From contig JAJFJV010000019.1 of NCBI GenBank assembly GCA_021773635.1, forward strand, positions 1 to 64,000: 64,000 nucleotides of DNA. The letters are read 5' to 3'. Positions 13,271 through 58,200 of this stretch are shown here, piece after piece; position 1 is the first letter of the stretch; every line of letters starts with the position of its first letter. The position numbers and the translations under genes are program-made. The notes beneath the pieces are model-generated. The model was not told the DNA's origin and ran no database searches. It saw only the letters and a list, made by a program, of their open reading frames with translations. This DNA comes from Gammaproteobacteria bacterium (GTDB taxonomy: Bacteria > Pseudomonadota > Gammaproteobacteria > HK1).

Positions 13271-14059
13271 TCAGACAAACCTCCTTGTACGCCGGAGCCT
13301 CATGCCCGCCAAACCAAGGGCCATTAACGCGAAGGTAACAGGTTCCGGAATTGGCGTGTGGTGGTCACTGGCACTGCCAACCATCCCAACCAGAGGATCA
13401 CCGGTAGTGTTATTGGGACCCTGTCTTATAAAGAGGTCAACCGGGGGCCCAACCAGCCTGTATGCATTTGGTCCAAAGCATCCGCTGCCAATAGGGGGCA
13501 GGCAAAAAATCGTTGCTTCGAGCCTGAAAGCATCCCTGTTATAGAAAGTCATGCCAGCGGTATCTATCTCAAAAAAGACGTCGAAGAAGCTGTCTCCCGA
13601 GACAAAGCTGGAGGGATCTCCACTTCCAAAACCTGGATCGCCCGGGTTTTGAACAACATTGGTTATTTGACCAAGGGATGGTCCCTCTTGAACGGGTGCT
13701 CCCGCCGGAACTGGATGTTGCGGATGGTCTCCACCAAAACCATCATTGCGATCGCCAACTCTTACAGTCACCGGACCAACATTTACGCTCGCACCCACCA
13801 AATCAAGACTGACAATCTCTGTATCGATAGTGGTGCCAACCTGAGCGTCCCGATGCACGATCTGAGCGGCGCTGCTCATTAAATCAATTTTTTCCGTAAA
13901 TCCACCCGGAAAAAAAGGATCAAAAATGGTGAGCGTAAACGCCCCCACTGAATTTGGTATGACATCATCACCGGCAACTATTGGAGAGGCCGGGACCGAA
14001 GTGAAACTCAAGGCGAACAATCCACCCAATACCAGCCTCATAAACGTCTGCTTAATCAT
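13271..14059 (-). CDS. PEP-CTERM sorted extracellular protein, function unknown
   Basis: A 262-residue secreted protein. The start at 14059 (MIKQTFMRLVLGGLFALS) gives a classical signal peptide ending near VPAS; an upstream in-frame ATG at 14107 would bury it. The C terminus is IPEPVTFALMALGLAGMRLR followed by basic residues: the Pro-Glu-Pro motif, transmembrane helix and Arg cluster recognised by exosortase (EpsH/XrtA-type) in polysaccharide-producing bacteria. The body is low in Cys and rich in Gly, Pro, Val and Asp, with no recognisable domain. No exosortase is present in this window. It has its own upstream region with a sigma-54-like promoter and two repeated boxes (see 14173-14412). Confidence 0.88.
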   Translation of the reverse strand: MIKQTFMRLVLGGLFALSFTSVPASPIVAGDDVIPNSVGAFTLTIFDPFFPGGFTEKIDLMSSAAQIVHRDAQVGTTIDTEIVSLDLVGASVNVGPVTVRVGDRNDGFGGDHPQHPVPAGAPVQEGPSLGQITNVVQNPGDPGFGSGDPSSFVSGDSFFDVFFEIDTAGMTFYNRDAFRLEATIFCLPPIGSGCFGPNAYRLVGPPVDLFIRQGPNNTTGDPLVGMVGSASDHHTPIPEPVTFALMALGLAGMRLRRTRRFV

Positions 14060-14172
14060 TTCCCCCTCCCCCGGATCGCAGCCAGTTAATACCTTCCTGC
14101 GCTCCATATCTCGTGGTTACCTCGGCATTAAACGGCCAGAAAAGTAGAAAAATCCCTTTCGAGTAATATGCA

Positions 14173-14188
14173 TGCAAATAGCACGCCG
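14173..14188 (-). promoter_or_regulatory. probable sigma-54 (-24/-12) promoter of the PEP-CTERM gene 13271-14059
   Basis: Read on the minus strand: CGGCGTGCTATTTGCA. The invariant GG and GC are exactly 10 bases apart and the -12 half TTGCA is perfect; the -24 half deviates at three positions from TGGCACG. It sits about 114 bp upstream of the start codon. Support comes from a near-perfect equivalent in front of the second PEP-CTERM gene. Confidence 0.55.
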
Positions 14189-14249
14189 GGGAAAATAATC
14201 CACACCAATCATAAGGTTATGTTTCTACTATGGGGAGGCAAGAAAAAAT

Positions 14250-14267
14250 TGTAAAAAATCCTGACGA
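14250..14267 (-). promoter_or_regulatory. PEP-CTERM upstream box, gene 1, proximal copy
   Basis: Plus-strand sequence TGTAAAAAATCCTGACGA. One of four copies found upstream of the two PEP-CTERM genes; positions 2-5 (GTAA) and 12-16 (CTGAC) are identical in all four. It lies about 62 bp upstream of the sigma-54-like promoter, a distance suited to an enhancer-binding protein. Confidence 0.6.
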
Positions 14268-14394
14268 TTTTTTGACCAAATCTCGCTCCTCACCCCGGCT
14301 TTTGACACCTGACACCTCGTGTTTCTCCACTATTCTTTATATAGATCAATGGCTTTTTGCCATCCTTCTGGCTCATGAAGTAGCGAGAGCAATG

Positions 14395-14412
14395 TGTAAG
14401 ATTTTCTGACAG
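14395..14412 (-). promoter_or_regulatory. PEP-CTERM upstream box, gene 1, distal copy
   Basis: Plus-strand sequence TGTAAGATTTTCTGACAG, in the same orientation as the proximal copy and 145 bp from it. Confidence 0.55.
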
Positions 14413-14497: not shown

Positions 14498-15103
14498 TTA
14501 CTCCATCCCTAGATATCTGGGCTCTGCCGCTATTCTTCGCAGCCAGGCCTGTACATTGGGGAAACCCGATAAGTCAAAACCGCCCTCATGGGCGACATGG
14601 GTATACGCGTAGAGAGAAATATCGGCAACAGACAATTGGTCCCCGACGAAGTAGGGTCGTTCCGCCAATTGAGTTTCCATAACCGCCAAAGCCTGGAGCC
14701 CGCCGGCCTGCTTTAACTCGTACTCCGCTCTTCGCTCCGCTGGCAGACCCAAATACTTTGCAATAAATCGTGCAACCGCTATGTACGGCTCGTGGCTGTA
14801 TTACTCAAAGAACTGCCACTGAAGTACCTGAGCCCTTCGATAATTATCACCCGGCAGGAATTTCGTATCGGCGGCAAGATAGTTCAGGATGGCATTCGAC
14901 TCCCATAAATAACGACCATCATCCAGGGCAAGCAACGGAATTTTTCCGTTGGGATTCATAAGCAGATACGCATCAGTCTGAGTTTCGCCAGCCAGAATAT
15001 CGACATGCACCCACTCATGGTCGATATCAAGCAGCGAAGCTAACAGTTTGACCTTGTAACAATTACCAGACTGGATATCACCGTAGATTTGCACGACGAC
15101 CAC
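14498..15103 (-). pseudogene. glutathione S-transferase interrupted by one in-frame TAA
   Basis: Two pieces lie in the same frame, 14801-15103 and 14498-14800. The first is a thioredoxin-fold GST N domain (IYGDIQSGNCYKVKLLASLL... NPNGKIPLLALDDGRYLWES) ending QWQFFE-TAA; translation past the stop continues directly as YSHEPYIAVARFIAKYLGLP and then the all-helical C domain (LSVADISLYAYTHVA). GST relatives usually have Gln at this point, so a single C to T change (CAA to TAA) explains the break. Without the stop the protein would be about 201 residues, normal for the family. It starts with GTG immediately after the stop of the DUF5062 gene. Either a recent pseudogene or a base-call error; the rest of the frame is intact. 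Confidence 0.85.
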
Positions 15104-41761: not shown

Positions 41762-42448
41762 CTAGCGTTTGCGGCGGCGGGCACCAAAGCCCATGCCGGC
41801 AAGGCCGAGACCCAGCAGCGCAAGGGTGGCCGGTTCAGGAACACCGCTCTCCTGCTCAATAGAGACTTGGAGGGTATAGGTATCTCCAGTATCCGGGGTA
41901 TTCCCAGTCCATTCAGCTACAGGAGTCACCCCAAAAATGGGGATAGCGCTAACGGCCGTGGAAGAGAACTCGGCAACACCAACCACGTAGGTGCCGGCCG
42001 TGGCGAAGTCGAAATCAAGGAAGGAATCCCTACCCCCAGCAGCCTCACTTCCAGCCGCCCCCTTACTGTTAGAATCGTCATCATTGGAAAACAAAACGAC
42101 ACCAGCCGAATCCCAGATCGCAATCTGGGTATCCATGTCCCCGGTACCTATATCCTCCCAACCAAAGTCGATATCAAAGATACCGCGGGCGCCATCAAAG
42201 GCCACGGTGAAGGAGTAGTAATCGAAGGTGCCATCACCGGTGCCATTGATGGTCACATGGGGAATGGTGGCGGAATCCAGGATATTGACATCGGCACCAA
42301 GTGAGAAGGAGCCATCAATATTCTGTGCCGTCGCCAGGGTGTTATTGGGCTCGGACTCGACGAGAACCGATGCACCTGCCAGCCCCGCATAACACAGACC
42401 ACCCGCAAGGGTCAGGGCCGTAAGACTTAGAATTCGTTTTGTTGCCAT
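41762..42448 (-). CDS. PEP-CTERM sorted extracellular protein (pre-peptidase-like domain)
   Basis: A 228-residue secreted protein. Start 42448 (MATKRILSLTALTLAGGLCYA) has GGAG nine bases upstream and a clear signal peptide. The mature part (VESEPNNTLATAQNIDGSFSLGADV, FDYYSFTV, DTQIAIWDSAGVVLFSNDDD, DSFLDFDFATAGTYVVGV) follows the bacterial pre-peptidase C-terminal / DVUA0089-like beta sandwich with an Asp-rich, probably calcium-binding loop. The C terminus VPEPATLALLGLGLAGMGFG plus ARRRKR is a textbook PEP-CTERM sorting signal. Own sigma-54 promoter and boxes upstream. Confidence 0.93.
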   Translation of the reverse strand: MATKRILSLTALTLAGGLCYAGLAGASVLVESEPNNTLATAQNIDGSFSLGADVNILDSATIPHVTINGTGDGTFDYYSFTVAFDGARGIFDIDFGWEDIGTGDMDTQIAIWDSAGVVLFSNDDDSNSKGAAGSEAAGGRDSFLDFDFATAGTYVVGVAEFSSTAVSAIPIFGVTPVAEWTGNTPDTGDTYTLQVSIEQESGVPEPATLALLGLGLAGMGFGARRRKR

Positions 42449-42495
42449 GCTCTGCGCTCCAAAAATGGATTGTTTCATGCTTCACGGAAGTCTAA

Positions 42496-42511
42496 TGCAA
42501 GCCGCGTGCCA
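42496..42511 (-). promoter_or_regulatory. sigma-54 (-24/-12) promoter of the PEP-CTERM gene 41762-42448
   Basis: Minus strand TGGCACGCGGCTTGCA is a perfect match to TGGCACG-N4-TTGCA. The start codon lies 48 bp downstream, leaving a normal leader with a good ribosome site. Confidence 0.88.
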
Positions 42512-42585
42512 TTGTTATCTTCACCTTATTATTCATGGCCTTAGGGCTTCTCACGCGCCACCCGACAGGCCGTCCATGAGGCAGA

Positions 42586-42603
42586 TGTAAAGTTTCCTGA
42601 CGA
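42586..42603 (-). promoter_or_regulatory. PEP-CTERM upstream box, gene 2, proximal copy
   Basis: Plus-strand TGTAAAGTTTCCTGACGA, 75 bp upstream of the sigma-54 promoter and in the same relative orientation as the boxes of gene 1. It agrees with the proximal copy of gene 1 at 15 of 18 positions. Confidence 0.65.
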
Positions 42604-42752: not shown

Positions 42753-42770
42753 CGTAAAAAATTCTGACAA
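42753..42770 (-). promoter_or_regulatory. PEP-CTERM upstream box, gene 2, distal copy
   Basis: Plus-strand CGTAAAAAATTCTGACAA, 167 bp from the proximal copy. The rest of the gene-free 42449-42923 stretch holds only the sigma-54 promoter, the proximal box and one REP unit. Confidence 0.6.
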
Positions 42771-42841: not shown

Positions 42842-42862
42842 GTAGGGCGGACCATGTCCGCC
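42842..42862 (+). repeat. REP unit on the 3' side of the RAYT gene
   Basis: GTAGGGCGGACCATGTCC... in plus orientation, about 60 bp beyond the stop codon of the RAYT gene. Confidence 0.85.
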
Positions 42863-42923
42863 TAAGGAAAGCAGCCACGCCATACCTCATATATGGCGCC
42901 CTACGCGCCAGAATCACTACCAC

Positions 42924-43457
42924 CTACTCACCAAAACGGCTATCCATTTCATCGGGCGGAATATCACCCCACGCCTGCGGATATTTTCCTTCACTCACAT
43001 GGCAGTGAAAACTAGAGAATGGCCAGTCTGCTACCCGTATAACATGCCCATGCTTAACCGGGTTCCAATGCAGATAATCCAGATGTCTCCGCAGATCCCG
43101 CTGGTCACGAATAAGATGCTCCCAATACCGGGATTGCCAAATTCCGGGCTTTCTCCGTTGTGCGGGGATAAGCGGGTTAGCAGCATCTTGAAGGGCCTGG
43201 CTAGTCAAGCGTTTGATCATTGACCACCGCCGGGAATAGTCAGCATCGTCAGGTGGCAGTGTCCAGATGCAGTGCAAGTGGTCAGGGAGTAAGACCCATG
43301 CGTCGATTTGAAACGAATGTGATTGGCGAACGATGTTAATCGCGGCACGCAGCGCAGTACGGAGTGCCGGTGTGGTAAGGATTGGGCACCGTTTCGAGCT
43401 AACCAGTGTGAAGAAATAGGAACCGCCCGGGACACGGGCACGGCGATAGTTTGGCAT
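42924..43457 (-). CDS. REP-associated tyrosine transposase (RAYT)
   Basis: A 177-residue Y1 HUH transposase related to IS200/IS605. Key residues: MPNYRRARVPGGSYFFTLV N terminus typical of RAYTs, the metal-binding HUH box LLPDHLHCIWTLP, a GIWQSRYWEHLIRD segment, and catalytic Tyr in LRRHLDYLHWNPVKHG. Length and the surrounding REP units (42842-42862 on one side, 43507-43582 on the other) mark it as a domesticated REP-processing transposase rather than an active IS. Intact frame. It very likely spread the nine REP units seen across this window. Confidence 0.93.
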   Translation of the reverse strand: MPNYRRARVPGGSYFFTLVSSKRCPILTTPALRTALRAAINIVRQSHSFQIDAWVLLPDHLHCIWTLPPDDADYSRRWSMIKRLTSQALQDAANPLIPAQRRKPGIWQSRYWEHLIRDQRDLRRHLDYLHWNPVKHGHVIRVADWPFSSFHCHVSEGKYPQAWGDIPPDEMDSRFGE

Positions 43458-43506
43458 CTGACATCCTTGTCATTGTGGTTATGAATGGCGGTCAAATCGG
43501 AGTATT

Positions 43507-43582
43507 CGGCGGACATGGTCCGCCCTACCAGTCCCCGTTATCCACCGACATTATTATCACGTAGGGCGGACCATGTCCGCCG
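43507..43582. repeat. inverted pair of REP units on the 5' side of the RAYT gene
   Basis: Units at 43507-43528 (minus orientation) and 43561-43582 (plus orientation), tail to tail with a 32-bp spacer. They are nearly identical to the 42842 unit, the freshest-looking set in the window. Confidence 0.85.
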
Positions 43583-55210: not shown

Positions 55211-58200
55211 CGACGCCCCCGGGTGATGGTGGGGATGAGTGGTCCGTAGATCATCCCGGCCAGGGTGCGGAAATCGTCATCCAGAGGCTCTGGCCGGCGA
55301 AAGGCGCTGCGGTATTCCGGCTTTTTGCCTTCGTGAGCGCGCCAGATCTTGAGCGCCGCCTTGATGGCCACAGCGTCGTCCCCGTCCTTGGCCATGGACA
55401 CCGCATAGGCCCAGGCGCTGTTGGGAAAAAAGGGCAAGGGCTCGCGCTGACCCCGATGATAGAGCTCAACCAGATTTGTAAGCTGGGTGGCCGCACCCTC
55501 CACCATTGGCGCAAGCGTCAGTTGGCCATCAAGGGCGATATGCACGCTGGCGAGCGGCAAGCCCACGGCGCCGAGCGCCAGATGTGGTAGCCACAAAGCC
55601 ACCCGATCTTCACCCCTTAACTTGGCGCCACGATAGCGTGTGCAGCCGTCGACACTCAGACCGTGAATTTCACCGTGCAAGCGGATTCCATCGATAGTCA
55701 GGGCAATTTCACGTGCCGGCAGGGCCGGCTCCATGCGTGGCCGAATCTGCTCCGCCATCTCAAGCACCGGGGCGAGCAGCGTCTCCAGCCAGGGCTCGGC
55801 TACACTGCCCGATGGCAACAAGCCACTCATCCTGGCCCATTGGCGCAGGGCCTCGGTAGATTCACCCGCGAGTGCCTGTTCCAGCAATTCACCACGCAAG
55901 CCGTAACATGCCAGCGGGTCCAAACCAAAGGATTCGGCCTCGGCAATACCCAGATCATCCTCCCGGTAGCTGATACCCAGGCGATTTCTCAGGAAGACAC
56001 GCACCGGGTTACGGAAGAACGCCACCAGCTCGTCGATTGAGATGCCCCCATCCCCCTCCTCCGGGGCTGCCAGTGGTTCAGCCAGCATAGGGGCAGGATC
56101 CCCGGCCTGAATCCTGGCTGGCGGCATCCATTCGTCCGCGTAGCTGAAGAGCGCCCCATTCTCGCTGGAGAAATAGTGTGGGCTGAAGGCCTGCAAGGCA
56201 TGCCGGGTGACCACGGGTGGCGCATTCTCCCCGCGGGAGCGCATCACGTAATCCTGTAATTCGCTCACCGGGGCTGCCGGCATGATTGGCGAGTCATCCC
56301 GGGGACTGGCCCCTGCATAGCTGATATAGAAGACATCCCGCGCCGAAAGCAGGGCCTCGAGAAAAAGATAGCGGTCCATCTCCCGCTCAATGCGATCACC
56401 TCGACGGGGCTGCCGGGCCATAAGGTCAAAGCCGGGGCGCGGATGTTGGCGTGGAAACGCGCCCTCGTTCATACCCACCAGACAGACCACCCGAAAGGGC
56501 ACACAACGCATGGGGACCAGCCCGCAAAAAGTAACTCTCCCGCCTGGAAAGCGTTCCTCCTTCAGACTCCCTTTGAGCTGGATCTCCAGGGCATCGATGA
56601 TGGTCTGGCAATCGATGGACTCGGAAAAATCCGCCCTGCTCGCCCGGCCGGTGATCTCGTTCACACCGGCCAGCACCCGCTGCAGGGCGACGCGCTCTTC
56701 ATCCCCCTCCGTTGAAAGGAAATCCGAGGCCAATCCTCGCAGTAGCCGGCCCCAGGTTTCGGTGTCGTATGTACGGCGCAGGCGCTGGCGCCAGCGCCCC
56801 ACATCGTCAATAAAGCCCGCCAGAATCCCCAGCCACTCCGCTTCCCGGCCACCCAATCCCGCACACGGTACAAAGCCATTGAAGGATGAGCTGTCGGCCG
56901 GCATGGCGTAGCCCAGCAGTAACCTCCGCAGCCCGTGCTGCCAGGTATGGGGTGCCGCCACCGGTATACCCAGTTCTATACGCGCGCGGTCATCCAGCCC
57001 CCAGCGAATACCGCTGGCCCGGCAGGCGTTACGGAGCCTTTCCAGCGCCTCGGTATCCAGCTGGTAGCGGCGTGCCACCAGGGGGTTTTCCAGTAACTCC
57101 AACAACTCCGGCGCACTCATGCGCGTCTCGCCAAGGCCCAGCAGATCAAGCAGGCAGTCTCTAATCCGGATGGCCGCGGTAGCTGGAATGTCCGAAATCT
57201 CCCAGGGAATGTGACGTTCCCGGGGGGCTGCCTCAAAGACCGCCTCGATACAGGGCGCGTAGGTGGCCATGTCCGGCGTCATCACTACGATGTCCTGAGG
57301 CCCAAGATCGGGCTCTCCGGCAAACAGGGCGAGCAACTGATCATGCAATACCTGCATCTCGCGCATGGGCCCATGGCAGCAGTGTATTTGCAGGGAGCGA
57401 TCATCCACGCCAGCGTCACCCGCTGCGGTTTCGCTACGGAAATCCTCCAGCCGGTAGATGGCACGCTGGATTTGCGCCAGGCAGTGCGTCCCTGACGGCA
57501 CCTGGTCCAGTACCTGTTCATCACAGGGGTATTCGTGCAATTGCTCAAGCAGGTCCCGCGCCGGCCCTCCCATGGAGGCCAGCAAGGAATTCCCGGTGGA
57601 AAAATGGGCCTCCGCGTCCGCTTTTCCCTGCTGCCGCCATGCCGCTTGCAGCCGCCCGATACGCTTCGGGGCAGTGATGTCCCCCCAGTAGATCTCGCTG
57701 GGATTGAGGATAAAAGCATGGACCTCGATGCGCTCTGCCAGCAGTGCAAGCACCTCAAGGTACATCGGCGGCAAACCGGCCAGCCCAAAGACCGACAGAC
57801 GGGGGGACAAGCTGGATTCATCCACAGTTCCGGCCTGCCAAAGACTTTTGAATTCGAAAAACACGCCGGCGCGATGCGGCGAGGAATCGGCATGATGCAA
57901 TGCGCGCCAGAGCCTGGCCTGCCAGTGCTCATCCTTGCCCGCTTCCCAACGGCTAATGAACTCGGGCCGATGGATAAGGTAGCGGTCATAGGCATCGGCA
58001 ATCAGCCCGGCCAGCTGAAAACGACGGGCCGTGGTGGCCTCCGCACCGAGAAAGTCCTTTAGCGGAGCAAATTCACGCTGCTTGATGAGCCTCGGCAGGA
58101 GCGCCATGATGCGCCATCGCAGGACCTCCCGGGCACAGGATGAACGCTCGGGCAAATGGGGCAACTGACCGCGAAACAGCTGCCACACAAAGGCGGCTGG

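Follow-up and report, generated by a model that had tools for sequence, protein, structure and literature searches.

A helically phased promoter module with a predicted PrsR box upstream of PEP-CTERM genes in a gammaproteobacterial genome

Known regulation of PEP-CTERM genes

Environmental proteobacteria widely carry the PEP-CTERM/exosortase system, whose regulation has so far been captured as a pair of motifs at an average distance. The system takes part in floc formation, and in Aquincola the pepA gene is known to be RpoN-dependent, with its transcription lost in an rpoN mutant (PMC9850573). The closest described element is that of Haft et al. (2006), a proteobacterial element composed of a 17-nt motif 1 that ends in TTTACA and is sometimes repeated, together with a sigma-54 motif 2, at a spacer of 62.8 ± 10.6 nt (PMC1569441). 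The same paper describes PrsR, PrsK, and PrsT as found by phylogenetic profile, and the element as the predicted target of PrsR/RpoN (PMC1569441). Rajeev et al. (2011; PMC3333781) applied DAP-chip to DVUA0057, the D. vulgaris regulator predicted for this element, and the five PEP-CTERM targets predicted for it were enriched. The sigma-54 promoters that are assisted by IHF have been reviewed as a group (PMC7057263).

Two PEP-CTERM promoter regions in the window

The window is the whole stretch of DNA that was analyzed, 64,000 nucleotides long (contig JAJFJV010000019.1, positions 1 to 64,000, assembly GCA_021773635.1). A first-pass annotation had described in it an 18-bp box, repeated in the same orientation 145 bp apart behind a GG-N10-GC promoter, upstream of one PEP-CTERM gene, with the same architecture at the only other PEP-CTERM gene, 28 kb away. 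The repeat, its orientation and distance, the promoter, and the like arrangement at the second gene were all recovered, while the conserved unit is 17 bp rather than 18 bp long and forms an imperfect dyad. Both genes lie on the minus strand, on which the box reads TGTCAG-N5-TTTACA toward the gene, and both end in a PEP-CTERM domain (TIGR02595, cut-off 16 bits). Each gene has two boxes, and each pair is accompanied by a sigma-54 promoter. The features are as follows:

13271..14107, minus strand: PEP-CTERM gene 1 (open reading frame as listed), TIGR02595 21.3 bits at 13280-13351
14173..14188, minus strand: sigma-54 (-24/-12) promoter of gene 1, GG-N10-GC, CGGCGTGCTATTTGCA
14207..14219, minus strand: IHF-like site of gene 1, TAACCTTATGATT, 8/9, 31 bp before the promoter motif
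14250..14266, minus strand: proximal predicted PrsR box of gene 1, CGTCAGGATTTTTTACA, 11/12, 78 bp from the promoter, start to start
14395..14411, minus strand: distal predicted PrsR box of gene 1, TGTCAGAAAATCTTACA, 11/12, 145 bp farther upstream
41762..42478, minus strand: PEP-CTERM gene 2, DVUA0089-family domain, TIGR02595 34.3 bits, NF038127 34 bits (cut-off 29)
42496..42511, minus strand: sigma-54 promoter of gene 2, TGGCACGCGGCTTGCA, near-perfect
42531..42543, minus strand: IHF-like site of gene 2, TAAGGCCATGAAT, 7/9, 32 bp before the promoter motif
42586..42602, minus strand: proximal predicted PrsR box of gene 2, CGTCAGGAAACTTTACA, 11/12, 91 bp from the promoter, start to start
42753..42769, minus strand: distal predicted PrsR box of gene 2, TGTCAGAATTTTTTACG, 11/12, 167 bp farther upstream

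An in-frame ATG behind an RBS-like GGGGGAGGGGG (by eye) puts the true start of gene 1 probably near 14060, so that the listed start at 14107 is probably too far upstream; gene 2 perhaps starts near 42449. Both proximal boxes are 17 nt long, match the consensus at 11 of 12 positions, and end in TTTACA on the gene strand. The gap from the proximal box to the sigma-54 promoter is 61 bp at gene 1 and 74 bp at gene 2, and both values lie within the 32-92 nt downstream of motif 1 at which the -24/-12 motif is placed in the membership criterion of Haft et al.

The pattern GTAA-N6-CTGAC occurs four times in the window, where 0.14 matches are expected and 0 of 100 shuffles reach four, and 33 times in the 2.55-Mb genome vs. 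nine for a reversed control pattern; an origin of the boxes by chance was rejected on these counts.

The neighborhood of the two regions has features of its own. Directly upstream of the gene 1 distal box lies a GST-like gene (14507-15103, minus strand), which stops after its N-terminal domain (100 aa, GST_N matches) at a stop codon and is probably a pseudogene. The interval 42842-43581 contains an IS200-like Y1 transposase gene (42924-43457, PF01797) that resembles a REP-associated RAYT; it is flanked by copies of GTAGGGCGGACCATGTCCGCC, of which the window has eight (up to three mismatches; none expected), the closest approximately 75 bp upstream of the gene 2 distal box.

Regulon and regulator genes in this genome

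In this genome, 11 PEP-CTERM domains score above the TIGR02595 cut-off. A box together with a sigma-54 promoter is present at 10 of these 11 genes, nine of which have a second, distal box, and the gene at C14:17764-17838 is the only one over the cut-off for which no upstream module of this kind was found. Exact boxes with an A/T-rich center number 17 in the genome, 13 of them upstream of PEP-CTERM genes (hand count). The other four comprise one box upstream of epsB-prsK-prsR, one upstream of a TpsA adhesin gene, and an orphan pair.

One locus encodes PrsR (729 bits, cut-off 502.6), PrsK (838 bits, cut-off 300), PrsT (676 bits), exosortase A (XrtA, 245 bits), and EpsB_2, with PrsT and XrtA each over their cut-offs as well. 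RpoN is also encoded (506 bits, cut-off 277), and the gene for IHF-alpha (ihfA) is present. The first-pass annotation had proposed that the boxes bind a PrsR-like protein and define a regulon, and had named a random spread of the box, or a genome without PrsR and PrsK, as evidence against this. The boxes are concentrated upstream of PEP-CTERM genes and the PrsR/PrsK locus exists, which argues for the proposal. The observation is correct and so is its reading, but the basic reading was already known from the element of Haft et al., the DAP-chip of DVUA0057, and the RpoN-dependent pepA of Aquincola.

The TpsA-type adhesin gene (C14:196003-200538) encodes at least 1477 aa, among them the TPS secretion domain PF05860 at 105 bits, adjoins a gene for a ShlB/FhaC-type transporter, and is absent from the PEP-CTERM matches. 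Its promoter region (C14:200445-200538) has the full module, with a distal box at 119 bp, a proximal box 79 bp from the promoter, an IHF-like TAACTGACTGAAT, and a sigma-54 promoter TGGCGTAGTATTTGCA. Without being a PEP-CTERM gene, it thus appears to belong to the PrsR regulon, which in this genome would consist of 10 PEP-CTERM genes and this one adhesin gene; we consider this composition very probable, a judgment made jointly for the whole of the best explanation given below.

The box upstream of epsB-prsK-prsR (C5:101933-101947) matches 12 of 12 positions, lies 111 bp from these genes, and reads away from them. No sigma-54 promoter was recognized for it by eye, and a similar box and flank recur in a congeneric genome (G001); autoregulation is possible. 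The orphan pair (C9:57696-57843, boxes at 57696 and 57829) has the normal module spacing of 133 bp and is flanked on one side by the 3' end of an XDP1-type PEP-CTERM gene, on the other by a gene that converges with it. No downstream gene was recognized for this pair and, by eye, no sigma-54 promoter; it is possibly a relic promoter.

Helical quantization of the box-promoter spacing

Box and promoter were searched at any gap of 47-97 bp in 369 genomes of the same class. The 92 sites (43 genomes) with TTTACA and an A/T-rich core are grouped in narrow spacing classes at steps of 11 bp, and the intervals between the classes are nearly empty. At 11.1 bp, R is 0.775, which 0 of 2000 sets jittered by ±6 bp match. 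The remaining 54 pattern matches, which are without TTTACA or the A/T-rich core and served as the negative control, have no periodicity (R = 0.21). A scan of named genomes, with gamma-, beta-, alpha-, and deltaproteobacteria titles among others, gave 115 sites in identical classes.

The pooled set of 199 sites was reduced to 176 non-redundant promoters by the removal of spacers with at least 55% identity, which left a typical mutual identity of 33%. In this set, the class means are 69.0, 79.8, 90.8, 101.6, and 112.7 bp with a standard deviation of approximately 1.3 bp (0.5 in the smallest class), and the period is 11.08 bp (bootstrap 95%, 10.9-11.3) with R = 0.765, reached by 0 of 3000 nulls. 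The few spacings between classes are at 66, 95, and 105 bp. Such classes could in principle be inherited, if a small number of ancestral promoters had spread as copies along with their genes and equal spacing reflected descent rather than a helical requirement; PEP-CTERM genes do multiply within genomes, and congeneric orthologues share spacings. However, the period and R were unchanged by the redundancy removal, the spacing classes recur in independent sets, and copying alone would not yield steps of one helical turn. Common descent was rejected as the source of the classes because the periodicity survived redundancy removal, and we give it hardly any credence beside a helical requirement.

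Relaxed DNA has approximately 10.5 bp per turn. The period of the PrsR-type promoters lies above this value and matches the 11 bp per turn that was measured for lac-repressor DNA loops in living E. coli (PMC8501960). The NtrC boxes taken as a comparator are less periodic (n = 45, with R = 0.48, a value that 0.3% of nulls attain). Phasing would thus seem to be shared by sigma-54 promoters in general and to be exceptionally strict for PrsR boxes.

An IHF-like site in fixed register

The IHF consensus is YAA-N4-TTGATW, the reverse complement of WATCAANNNNTTR. A column profile aligned on the promoter alone has extra conservation from -31 to -15, and the conserved element fits this consensus. Sites that score 7/9 or better accumulate at two offsets, 31-33 bp before the promoter for one orientation and approximately 19-20 bp for the other. 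Either fixed register is occupied in 127 of the 176 promoters, compared with 6-12 of 176 for windows placed elsewhere in the spacer, and the other 49 are without a clear match. The distance from the box to the IHF-like site is clustered at about 38, 48, 58, and 70 bp, and the positions of the two are correlated, with a Spearman coefficient of 0.57 (p = 0.0002) for the 80-bp class and of 0.86 (p = 0.001) for the 91-bp class. At both window genes, a candidate IHF site lies between the box and the promoter.

The element is A/T-rich and close upstream of the promoter, as would be expected of intrinsically curved DNA or of an UP-element contacted by the alpha subunit of the polymerase, and the 49 promoters without the IHF consensus fit such a reading. 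We nonetheless regard it as unlikely, since the element conforms to the IHF consensus, the correct N4 gap included, is found in both orientations, each with its own fixed offset, and moves together with the box, and since IHF is known to assist looping at sigma-54 promoters (PMC7057263). A predicted IHF-type site is the reading retained here.

Box orientation and the distal box

The forward box upstream of a promoter gave 146 matches, of which 54 look like background, and the inverted box gave 53, a number at background level. A reverse-oriented box was rejected as a functional variant on this background level, and the PrsR-type box has a single orientation.

The distal box recurs in two congeneric genomes and lies 110-167 bp beyond the proximal box. 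Its phase at 11.1 bp gives R = 0.85 over nine promoters (Rayleigh p about 0.001) and R = 0.76 (p = 0.003, n = 10) with the TpsA promoter added, p-values that are approximate because the promoters are paralogues. Outside the genus, a minority of promoters have a distal box and its phasing is weak (R = 0.36). The distal box was rejected as a universal feature, being strong in 33 of 171 non-redundant promoters and concentrated in this genus.

Regulator assignment and proposed mechanism

PrsR over the cut-off is encoded in 31 of the 42 genomes with a phased box vs. 74 of the 327 without one (odds ratio 9.6, p = 9e-11, 369 genomes). Another NtrC-family activator of the genome could bind the boxes while PrsR acts elsewhere: 19 further genome stretches match the PrsR profile below its cut-off, 10 of them over long parts of the profile, and 11 of the 42 phased-box genomes are without PrsR over the cut-off, although some of these are incomplete and some of their box matches look like chance. 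Given these 19 stretches, the assignment of PrsR rests on family scores, co-occurrence, and the literature. Against another activator stand the co-occurrence itself, the match of the PrsR profile to the motif profile given by Haft et al. (PMC1569441), and the D. vulgaris regulator, which enriched its predicted PEP-CTERM promoters (PMC3333781). On these three grounds PrsR is the likely binder of the box, and we hold a different activator to be quite improbable.

In the proposed mechanism, each PEP-CTERM gene would be driven by an RpoN (sigma-54) promoter, and PrsR, which forms a two-component system with PrsK and is its response regulator, would in its phosphorylated form bind the 17-bp box TGTCAG-N5-TTTACA. 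IHF or another IHF-type bender would bind at the fixed register and fold the DNA between box and promoter, and PrsR would reach the RpoN holoenzyme, still in its closed state, from the correct face and remodel it. Activation would be best with a whole number of helical turns between box and promoter, which would account for the quantization at approximately 11.1 bp. The phased distal box of this genus may aid the loading or assembly of PrsR, through a higher local PrsR concentration or oligomerization.

From the motif sequences and positions, the spacing statistics, the fixed registers, and the protein genes present, we infer the binding of PrsR and IHF, the looping, and the role of the distal box. 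The quantized spacing, the fixed IHF register, the single box orientation, and the phased distal box suggest that PrsR probably acts via an IHF-bent loop in strict helical register. The best explanation overall, in which we have high confidence, combines RpoN promoters, PrsR activation from the 17-bp box, an IHF-type bend, helical phasing, and a phased distal box. A broader reading appears fairly likely, in which an oriented box, a fixed IHF bend, a sigma-54 promoter, and a genus-specific phased distal box make up a stereospecific PrsR promoter module whose spacing evolves only by whole turns. Such promoters would then record the loop repeat in vivo (11.08 bp, 10.9-11.3), and the module would also drive non-PEP-CTERM surface genes such as that of the TpsA adhesin. 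Through its evolution, so large a natural set of promoters would also report on the helical repeat that looped DNA has in cells.

Genes behind PrsR-type modules in other genomes

In several gammaproteobacteria, DUF3135 genes (PF11333; L125 and L168 tested) lie behind box and sigma-54 modules (L121, L125, and L168, with L238 the same as L125 and L308 the same as L121), and the DUF3135 gene is a possible conserved non-PEP-CTERM target of PrsR. PilZ-domain genes are found downstream of PrsR-type modules at two loci (L122 and L293; at L122, an 86-aa ORF is nearer the promoter), hinting at a link to c-di-GMP signaling. PrsR-type promoters also precede genes for small predicted secreted proteins, of which those at L111, L123, and L230 have an RRKL/RRRF-like leader and those at L131 and L252 a TPDxxTPxxExxC motif; no family match was obtained for them in Pfam (L123, L230, L131, and L252) or NCBIfam (L111, L123, L230, and L252).

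Comparison with known systems

Among open-access literature judged by titles, no relevant earlier work was found on PEP-CTERM together with IHF or helical phasing. The spacing rule, the IHF register, the single box orientation, and the phased distal box go beyond the earlier literature as far as found there.

Like the element in the part of Haft et al. considered here (PMC1569441), the window has a 17-nt TTTACA box and a sigma-54 promoter at spacers of 61 and 74 bp, and this genome has PrsR, PrsK, PrsT, and exosortase with boxes upstream of PEP-CTERM genes. The 11-bp quantization, the IHF-like site, and the box orientation are features reported here in addition to that part of the description. 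Where motif 1 is there "sometimes repeated" (PMC1569441), the box is here repeated at nine of 10 PEP-CTERM promoters, at 110-167 bp, and one apparent target is a TpsA gene. For the DVUA0057 regulon, no binding-site motif was validated in the study concerned (PMC3333781).

The spacing rule, the IHF-like site, and the fixed orientation form a predictive grammar that allows regulon calls with confidence, including genes without a PEP-CTERM tail; the value added here is this stricter promoter grammar and one predicted non-PEP-CTERM target in this genome. With the IHF-assisted sigma-54 promoters in general (PMC7057263), the element shares an enhancer, a sigma-54 promoter, and looping that would likewise be assisted by IHF, and it differs from them in that it belongs to one regulon and has a fixed IHF register and a quantized spacing across 176 non-redundant promoters.
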